This document shows, piece by piece, positions 36,391-41,198 of a stretch of DNA of 41,198 bases. The DNA lies in NCBI GenBank assembly GCA_030647255.1, contig JAUSJK010000078.1, positions 1 through 41,198 on the forward strand. The letters are read 5' to 3'. The stretch's first letter is position 1. Each line of letters starts with the position of its first letter. The notes under the pieces are model-generated. The model did no database searches. It had not been told where the DNA came from and saw nothing but the letters and a program-made list of their open reading frames with translations. Made by a program: the position numbers and the translations under genes. This stretch comes from a bacterium (GTDB taxonomy: Bacteria; Patescibacteriota; Microgenomatia; UBA1406; GWC2-37-13).

Positions 36391-36515
36391 CGTCATTCTG
36401 GGGAACGAAGCCAGGTACAGTCTTGCACCTGGCGAAGTTGACTCCAGAATCGTAGTGAATGAAATTAACAACGATCCTGGATGCGCTTTATAAATCATCT
36501 CTTACCAGGATGACG
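36391..36515 (-). repeat. Two-hairpin REP/MITE-like element, copy R1
   Basis: This 125-bp element is the reverse complement of copies at 39162-39306 and 40523-40624. Ends are CGTCATTCTGGGG and CCAGGATGACG. Inside, CCAGAATCGT and AACGATCCTGG mark two back-to-back hairpins. The loop of one arm holds a perfect inner stem GCCAGGT (36410-36416) with ACCTGGC (36427-36433). It sits between the ATPase and permease genes. Confidence 0.85.
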
Positions 36516-39161: not shown

Positions 39162-39306
39162 CGTCATCCTGGTAAGTCCTGAGTGAAGCCAGGTCTGACT
39201 TGGCGAAGCCGAAGGACGCATCCAGGATCGTTGTCAATTAATTCACGATTCTGGAGTCACTTTGCCAGGTGCAAGACCGTACTTGGCTTCGTTCCCCAGA
39301 ATGGCG
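39162..39306 (+). repeat. Two-hairpin REP/MITE-like element, copy R2
   Basis: This 145-bp copy reads CGTCATCCTGG, 45 or so variable bases, TCCAGGATCGTTGTCAAT, a short linker, ACGATTCTGGAGTC, a variable loop and CCCCAGAATGGCG. The first and third blocks pair with the second and fourth to give two hairpins. The second loop contains GCCAGGT and ACTTGGC as an inner stem. It is the longest copy, and lies in the gap downstream of the small membrane protein gene. Confidence 0.85.
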
Positions 39307-39651: not shown

Positions 39652-40491
39652 TCATTTTTGACATTTTTCACAATAAAAACTACTTCTTCCTCCCTGTTTT
39701 ATTCTTTTGATGATTGTTTTACAGTTGAAACATGGTTTATTCTCTCGATGGTAGACTTTGAAATGAAATTGATATGCACCTTTCGTGCTGTCGGGCATGA
39801 TATACATCTCATCCTGCGCGGATGATCCTCGGTACTCTATTCCCTCTGCAATTACTTTTTTAATAGCTTCATATAATGTTTTTATTTCCTTTTCATCGAG
39901 TGAATTGGCTTTTCTCGTTGGAAGTATACCGGCGATAAAAAGGGAGTCGTTTGCGTATATATTGCCTATACCCGCAATAAACTCCTGATCCATGAGTATG
40001 ACTTTGATGGGTTTTCTTGAGGCACTCAACTTTTTCTTTATATATTCTATTGTGAACTCTTTTGACAAAATATCGGGAGATGTGGGTGCTTCCGGTTGTG
40101 GGGTAAGTTTGACCCAACCAAATTTTCTCACGTCGTTGAAGTAAAGTACCGAGTTATCTTGAAAATAAAAAATTATTCGTGTGTCGGCGGCGGGCATTTT
40201 ATTCGTATATGTCCGGGGAATTTCATTTTTAAAGAGAGAATTATCTTTGTCGTGATGAAAAAGTATCTGCCCCGTAAGTTTGAGATGAAAACTAAGATAA
40301 AGATCGTTTGATAATTTGAGAGACAACACTTTACCTTTTCTTTGAACAGCGCTCACTTTTTGTTGTATTGCTTTTTGAGGATCACCTACAAACTGTTTTT
40401 TTTCTCTTATATCAATGGAGAAGATAGTTTTACCGATAATATCTTTCTCTAAAGATCGGCGAATTGTTTCAACTTCTGGTAACTCAGGCAT
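39652..40491 (-). CDS. mutM: Formamidopyrimidine-DNA glycosylase (Fpg/MutM)
   Basis: This 279-aa base-excision-repair enzyme removes oxidised purines such as 8-oxoguanine and nicks the strand. It starts MPELPEVETIRRSL, so after Met removal P2 is the nucleophile and E3 the acid. RKGKVLSLKL carries the conserved Lys, and LSFHLKLTGQI and LYFNDVRKFGWVKL follow. The helix-2turn-helix is QEFIAGIGNIYANDSLF. The zinc finger at the end has four Cys (CFNC and CEKC) and the GRSSF substrate-contact loop. ATG 40491 is required because an in-frame ATG at 40506 would bury the catalytic proline. Confidence 0.96.
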   Translation of the reverse strand: MPELPEVETIRRSLEKDIIGKTIFSIDIREKKQFVGDPQKAIQQKVSAVQRKGKVLSLKLSNDLYLSFHLKLTGQILFHHDKDNSLFKNEIPRTYTNKMPAADTRIIFYFQDNSVLYFNDVRKFGWVKLTPQPEAPTSPDILSKEFTIEYIKKKLSASRKPIKVILMDQEFIAGIGNIYANDSLFIAGILPTRKANSLDEKEIKTLYEAIKKVIAEGIEYRGSSAQDEMYIMPDSTKGAYQFHFKVYHRENKPCFNCKTIIKRIKQGGRSSFYCEKCQK

Positions 40492-40522
40492 ATATAAGAT
40501 GTACAAAATTCTTTATTATTTA

Positions 40523-40624
40523 CGTCATCCTGGCTTGTATCGCGAAGCGATACTTGTCCAGGATCGTTGTCAATGTAGTAACTACGATTCTGGAGTCGTC
40601 ATTTTATTCCTCCCCAGAATGACG
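40523..40624 (+). repeat. Two-hairpin REP/MITE-like element, copy R3
   Basis: This 102-bp copy is the shortest. CGTCATCCTGG and CCAGGATCG form the first hairpin, whose loop has its own stem TATCGC-GAA-GCGATA. CGATTCTGGAGTC and CCCCAGAATGACG form the second. The central block GATCGTTGTCAAT is shared with R2. It lies between mutM and the upstream GT4 gene. Confidence 0.85.
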
Positions 40625-40640
40625 AAGTACTTTTTTACTT

Positions 40641-40703
40641 CTTATACCAAATACAAAATACTAGATACTAATGTCTAACTCTTAACACTTAACATTCCTA
40701 ACT
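40641..40703. repeat. Heptamer-period tract C (9 units)
   Basis: Nine consecutive 7-bp units on the plus strand: CTTATAC, CAAATAC, AAAATAC, TAGATAC, TAATGTC, TAACTCT, TAACACT, TAACATT, CCTAACT. The pattern drifts from NNNATAC to TAACNNT. It lies 16 bp from repeat R3 and runs across the stop codon of the GT4 gene, encoding its last residues. Confidence 0.65.
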
Positions 40704-41198
40704 TTTCCTTAACAAATTCTTCCATTTTCTTTTTAAACACTTCTTCCGAATACTTTTCTGCTTCTTTTCGAGCGTTTTTTCTCATCTGTCCATATTCTTT
40801 TTCTGAAAGAGACTCAAGTTTTTTTATTTTCTCTATCAAACTTTCTTCCTTTAACTCTGAATATAAGTATCCGTTTACTTCATCTACAACAGTTTCTTTA
40901 AGTCCTCCCGAACTGTAAGCTATGACGGGGACTCCGTATCTCATTGCCTCAACAGGAGCAATACCAAATTCCTCATCGACGGACGCAAAAAGAAACGCTT
41001 TTGCATTGTGATATACATTTTTTAATTCCTCATCAGACAGACCTGTGAGAAATTCGACAGTTGGTCCAGCAATTGACCGTAAATATGTTTCGTCTCTGCC
41101 CGAGCCGACTATTTTTAGATTGAATTTCATTGAGTTTGCAGTTTTGACAAGAATATCAATGTGTTTTGCTCGAGCAAGACGAGAGACGGAAATATAAT
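40675..41198 (-). CDS. GT4 glycosyltransferase, C-terminal part (runs off right edge)
   Basis: The frame stays open to the window edge, so the first in-window ATG (41130) is internal. The 174 visible codons start YISVSRLARAKHIDILVKTA, the donor-domain opening of GT4 enzymes, followed by LKIVGSGRDETYL, FLTGLSDEELKNVYHNAKAF and the EX7E site DEEFGIAPVEAMRYG (E to E). GGLKETVVDEVNGYL and a helical end complete it. It probably transfers a sugar from a nucleotide donor to a lipid-linked acceptor. The last seven residues (GMLSVKS) and the TAG stop lie in heptamer tract C. Confidence 0.9.
   Translation of the reverse strand, partial: YISVSRLARAKHIDILVKTANSMKFNLKIVGSGRDETYLRSIAGPTVEFLTGLSDEELKNVYHNAKAFLFASVDEEFGIAPVEAMRYGVPVIAYSSGGLKETVVDEVNGYLYSELKEESLIEKIKKLESLSEKEYGQMRKNARKEAEKYSEEVFKKKMEEFVKEKLGMLSVKS

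Follow-up and report, generated by a model that had tools for sequence, protein, structure and literature searches.

A CGTC-tagged palindrome dimer with heptamer arms at a glycosyltransferase–mutM junction

The GT4–mutM junction and its composite repeat

The window considered here is a stretch of bacterial DNA of 41,198 nucleotides (contig JAUSJK010000078.1), at the right end of which a GT4-type glycosyltransferase gene is followed downstream by mutM (Table 1). The contig ends at 41198, within the GT4 gene, which is therefore incomplete. The closest named proteins to the mutM product have only 31–40% identity to it, the best of them being in a Ca. Woesebacteria genome, and the affiliation suggested by them is no more than indicative. 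Between the GT4 stop codon and the mutM start codon lies a composite repeat, consisting of a palindromic core flanked by two arms of heptameric units, the right one of which extends 29 nt into GT4 and contains its stop codon (40675–40677). As RNA, the sequence from the GT4 stop to the mutM start has a fold z of −3.3, with nested hairpins predicted across the whole junction.

Table 1. Positions of the genes and repeat features in the window
Feature	Position	Strand	Basis or remark
mutM (formamidopyrimidine-DNA glycosylase), next gene downstream of GT4	39652..40491	-	PF01149, PF06831
Degenerate left arm	40493..40522	+	40493–40508 pairs 14/16 with 40631–40646 (inverted repeat I1)
CGTC-tagged palindrome a, CGTC-ATCCTGG-(loop with TATCGC/GCGATA hairpin)-CCAGGAT	40523..40564	+	sequence
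Spacer, complementary ends (CGTTGT..ACTACG)	40565..40586	.	
CGTC-tagged palindrome b (inverted), ATTCTGG-(loop)-CCAGAAT-GACG	40587..40624	-	sequence
Core-proximal part of right arm, heptad phase kept (GAAGTACTTTYTTAC)	40625..40640	.	similar in other armed copies; core–ATAC gaps step by 7
Nine heptamers, right arm of composite	40641..40703	-	period-7 test; GTAT-type string recurs at unrelated loci L100, L079 and L039
GT4-type glycosyltransferase, 3′ part (173 residues + stop), 5′ part lost	40675..41198	-	PF00534, E 5.7e-30, residues 2–144
Further core of same family, ATAC arm of 2 units	36444..36480	-	
Further core of same family	39222..39254	+	

Read on the GT4 strand, the nine heptamers are AGTTAGG, AATGTTA, AGTGTTA, AGAGTTA, GACATTA, GTATCTA, GTATTTT, GTATTTG and GTATAAG, that is, five TTA-type units on the gene side followed by GTAT-type units on the core side. 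The units are degenerate, and Tandem Repeats Finder reports only 2.7 copies for the tract. The region is AT-rich, which would be in keeping with a tract arisen by chance; however, 36 of 56 positions match at a lag of 7, a score never reached by shuffling of the tract, either for composition (mean 17.8, maximum 31) or as a dinucleotide chain (mean 18.5, maximum 35; 20,000 shuffles each). No 63-bp stretch of the window reaches a score of 36 at periods 5, 6 or 8–12; the period-7 signal of the tract is real and exceeds that of every other period between 5 and 12 in the window. A chance origin, which is also at odds with the repetition of the arrangement across the genome in fixed orientation, is vanishingly improbable and is already refuted by the shuffle results. 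The layout first read from the sequence, in which a core (40523–40624, termed R3) is separated by 16 bp from nine heptamers running through the GT4 stop codon, is confirmed.

The tail of GT4 and the question of phase variation

The original prediction held that the tract encodes the last seven residues of GT4, and that gain or loss of units could make it either a phase-variable tail on a surface-glycan enzyme or a scar of repeated slippage. The C-terminus is indeed encoded by the tract, which specifies eight complete residues (LGMLSVKS) rather than seven, and the stop codon. A switch of the C-terminus through slippage among the heptamers is a tempting reading, because the period is indivisible by 3 and the tract overlaps the coding end of a glycan gene, as in the phase-variable simple sequence repeats of surface genes. 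When changes of −2 to +6 units were simulated, however, the GT4 fragment always had 173 residues, and loss of three or four units gave 177, so that only the last few residues were altered and the product was not switched. The near constancy of length is due to a stop codon in every unit near the end of the gene: the units nearest the stop (GTTAAGT, GTTAAGA, GTTAGAC, ATTAGTA and TCTAGTA on the GT4 strand) each contain TAA or TAG, and since the unit length does not divide by 3, the frame of the stop shifts from one unit to the next and every frame is closed in the course of three units.

The residues affected by the tract lie beyond the Pfam domain, which ends at residue 144, and beyond the part common to relatives, similarity to which ends at about residue 163–169. 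Past this point the tails of the relatives' GT4 proteins are unrelated and differ freely. Two orthologue tails, ...SFPRKRESRFK (L141) and ...GHSREDGNPC (L138), look to us as if they were encoded by other dispersed repeats, and the GT4 3′ end may therefore have been invaded repeatedly. Because the tails differ freely and at least two look repeat-derived, the 3′ end of GT4 is a permissive site, and the tract does not look like a switch. In contrast to known phase-variable repeats, its units are degenerate, probably too much so for ordinary slippage switching, there is no on/off outcome, and it stands at an unconserved 3′ end. Since the gain of units, or the loss of one or two, barely alters the protein, we consider a phase-variable tail very improbable, and this part of the prediction, being unsupported, is removed.

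Copies of the core and its arms across the genome

The core is a head-to-head dimer of palindromes with the CGTC tags facing outward, and its fold z as DNA is −5.0. Exact cores number 92 in this genome, mostly between ORFs, with no match to a reversed-pattern control, and copies other than that at GT4 also carry heptamer arms; the expectation that the composite is a repeated one is thus borne out. The core was absent from all 184 genomes of relatives searched, and a search of the window against Rfam gave no match.

The closest likeness is to CGTC-tagged REPs, which are mostly head-to-head dimers with a stem of 8–9 bp, a loop of 4–5 nt and no dedicated transposase (PMC3733652). The two have in common the outer CGTC tags (unpaired at one palindrome end in most copies of our core), a stem starting with AT, a mostly head-to-head dimeric form with structured spacers, and an intergenic position close to gene 3′ ends; the core too occurs in many copies with no flanking RAYT transposase. 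Unlike those REPs, its stem is 7 bp instead of 8–9, for which reason it is to be called CGTC-type-like, outside the four described families. It also differs in regularly having heptamer arms of fixed orientation and phase, and in that its loops, of 4–5 nt in the simplest copies (CTTGT, ACAAG), are enlarged by exchangeable hairpins in others, including the GT4–mutM copy. Both loops can carry such modules (TAGTGAGCTTGTCGAACTA, CCTGCCTGCCGGCAGGCAGG, CCCGCCGGGCAGAGCCCTCTGGGCGGCG, CCCGACGTCAAACCTCGGGA and others) in many combinations, for example at L009, L094, L109 and L127, which gives the impression that small palindromes become inserted there. At L109 (G000:C47:35153 and 35330), two neighbouring cores, about 180 bp from each other, have a common spacer sequence, with TAAC-type heptamers between them.

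No transposase is tied to the core, in that none of the four Y1 transposase loci of the genome is directly flanked by one. At one of these loci (L130:1533–2116, G000:C30) the palindrome GTAGGGAACGGTTTNAAACCGTTCCCTAC lies just upstream of the Y1 gene and a similar palindrome inside it, an arrangement suggestive of a GTAG-tagged REP that has a transposase (RAYT) of its own. Palindromes related to GTAGGGAACGGTTTNAAACCGTTCCCTAC adjoin cores at L050, L058 and L112.

By a strict pattern test, a heptamer arm is present in 36 of the 87 core copies with both ends readable (~40%), and ~59% of copies are without arms. The arms have a fixed side and direction: AAC-type heptads are found on the left of the core in 27/87 copies (reversed in 2/87), and ATAC-type heptads on the right in 17/85 (on the left in 0/87, reversed in 1/85). 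The gap between core and ATAC array is mostly 20–21 bp, and also 13–14 or 28 bp (10 and 12 bp once each), and these steps of 7 indicate that the heptad phase reaches the core. A string of 36 bp in the GT4 arm (C12) is identical at C39 (L100), beside an ORF of 466 residues, while L079 and L039 share 26–27 identical bases with the GT4 arm and are each longer by one unit. The sharing of unit strings between unrelated loci suggests that arms are copied as blocks, while the one-unit differences among sister arms suggest that single units are gained or lost. The proposed slippage scar therefore stands in part: the differences of one unit at other loci agree with it, whereas the long identical strings indicate that the GT4 tract arrived at least partly as a copied block. 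Fixed side, common gap and shared unit orders together argue that arms travel with the core.

Armed copies are also associated with gene ends. With genes called simply as ORFs of 80 codons or more, 19 of 23 armed copies have a gene end at the right arm, compared with 28 of 59 copies without a right arm (Fisher p 0.006), and in most armed copies the arm begins within ~10 nt of the stop codon. An excess of stop codons in heptamers read inward (per 100 nt) holds in this genome (8.7 vs 5.5) but not in relatives (8.4 vs 8.0), and was dropped as a class-wide rule.

Heptamers in relatives and the origin of the composite

Heptamers are not confined to core copies. Intergenic DNA of this genome is enriched for period 7 at a looser threshold, with 31 tracts where 2 are expected (other periods from 4 to 13 give 3–7), and small samples of relatives have the same trend. 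Of 116 genomes, 67 contain heptamers of the TAGTAT type and 54 contain those of the GTTNCAT type, both counts to be taken as upper figures because a reversed control also matched in several genomes. An exact pattern of paired heptamers facing inward was found in 21 of the 116 and the outward pair in none, with controls at zero; the inward matches overlap within single junctions, so that separate places are fewer than matches. In a phylum-wide sample the inward pattern was present in 4 of 153 genomes. In several relatives (L216, L218, L220–L223 and L227–L233), inverted pairs of heptamer arrays fill whole junctions from stop codon to start codon and fold well; in several of these the first heptad includes the TAG or TAA stop, and the ATG is reached by the last one. 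Ten heptamer-pair junctions in relatives have fold z values of −1.6 to −4.6, which are illustrative since the examples were chosen for their heptamers. One contig end (L189:1–99, G042:C3 start) carries a near-perfect array of ~12 ATGCTTC heptamers, and is a better candidate for variation in unit number than the GT4 tract.

These observations bear on a second reading, in which heptamers already marked gene junctions of the lineage, as inverted pairs between stop and start codons that fold into an mRNA hairpin, before the CGTC core was inserted in or beside them; the arms would then be hosts and not parts of the element. The occurrence of heptamers and inward pairs in relatives that have no core accords with it, as does the intergenic enrichment for period 7. 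The locus itself offers a further point, since in two other genera (L137 and L144) other heptamers stand at the GT4–mutM junction. In the genome under study, ATAC arrays also occur with no core within 60 bp, and the ~59% of copies lacking arms mean that arms could be older junction DNA beside which cores insert. Nevertheless, identical unit strings and the same core–array gap at unrelated loci need block copying, and in this genome the left arm usually differs in type from the right one, rather than being its mate in a pair. We consider it rather doubtful that the arms are only hosts.

The feature is probably a copy of a dispersed, non-coding, species-specific composite, made up of a REP-like CGTC dimer and heptamer arms, that was inserted at the GT4–mutM junction, although the lack of a Y1 transposase tied to the core weakens this interpretation. 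Arm and core would have been copied together to many gene junctions, a mobility that the shared arm strings point to. In keeping with insertion, mutM directly follows GT4 at about half of the loci examined in relatives, where the two genes stand without the element, with a spacing from overlap to roughly 90 bp and with unrelated C-terminal tails of GT4. At the GT4–mutM junction of this genome the arm supplies the last residues of GT4 and its stop codon. The insertion may have been tolerated there since the GT4 tail is free of constraint and translation is ended within a few residues, whatever the frame, by the TAA- and TAG-containing heptamers near the stop; this would also account for the position. 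The composite is likely to be a junction element of selfish or neutral character, and it may affect the mRNA between GT4 and mutM.

The composite is a novel variant of known repeat kinds. Direct repeats of the heptamer TAACTGA are recorded in Beggiatoaceae and cyanobacteria, where stop codons in every frame restrict their overlap with ORF ends (PMC4679880). The units here are likewise tandem 7-nt sequences, mostly intergenic, placed beside start or stop codons and with stops in all frames; in contrast to near-identical units of one sequence, however, those of the GT4 tract are degenerate, of several types and joined to a palindromic core, and the heptamers of relatives are arranged as inverted pairs. 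The heptamers GGGAATC of Xanthomonas and GGGGATT of Nostoc (PMC4692102) are also intergenic, with conserved location and variable length, but ours differ in sequence, are not G-rich and adjoin a palindromic core. A limited literature search turned up no description of CGTC palindromes that carry heptamer arms, of operon junctions with inverted heptad pairs, or of heptamer repeats in candidate-phyla bacteria.

Finally, it is possible, and we suggest tentatively, that inverted pairs of degenerate heptamers extending from a stop codon to the next start are an unrecorded functional junction element of a group with small genomes (probably of Microgenomates type), working as mRNA hairpins where the genes of an operon meet, and that the CGTC dimer of this species took up such arms. 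The composite links two repeat classes that have been described separately, CGTC-tagged palindromes and heptamer arrays. The junction layout with a strict orientation rule that it exposed in many relatives is a more interesting lead than the GT4 copy, and raises the question of whether, in bacteria with very compact genomes, the expression of neighbouring genes is controlled or coupled by paired arrays of heptamers that lie between a stop codon and the next start.
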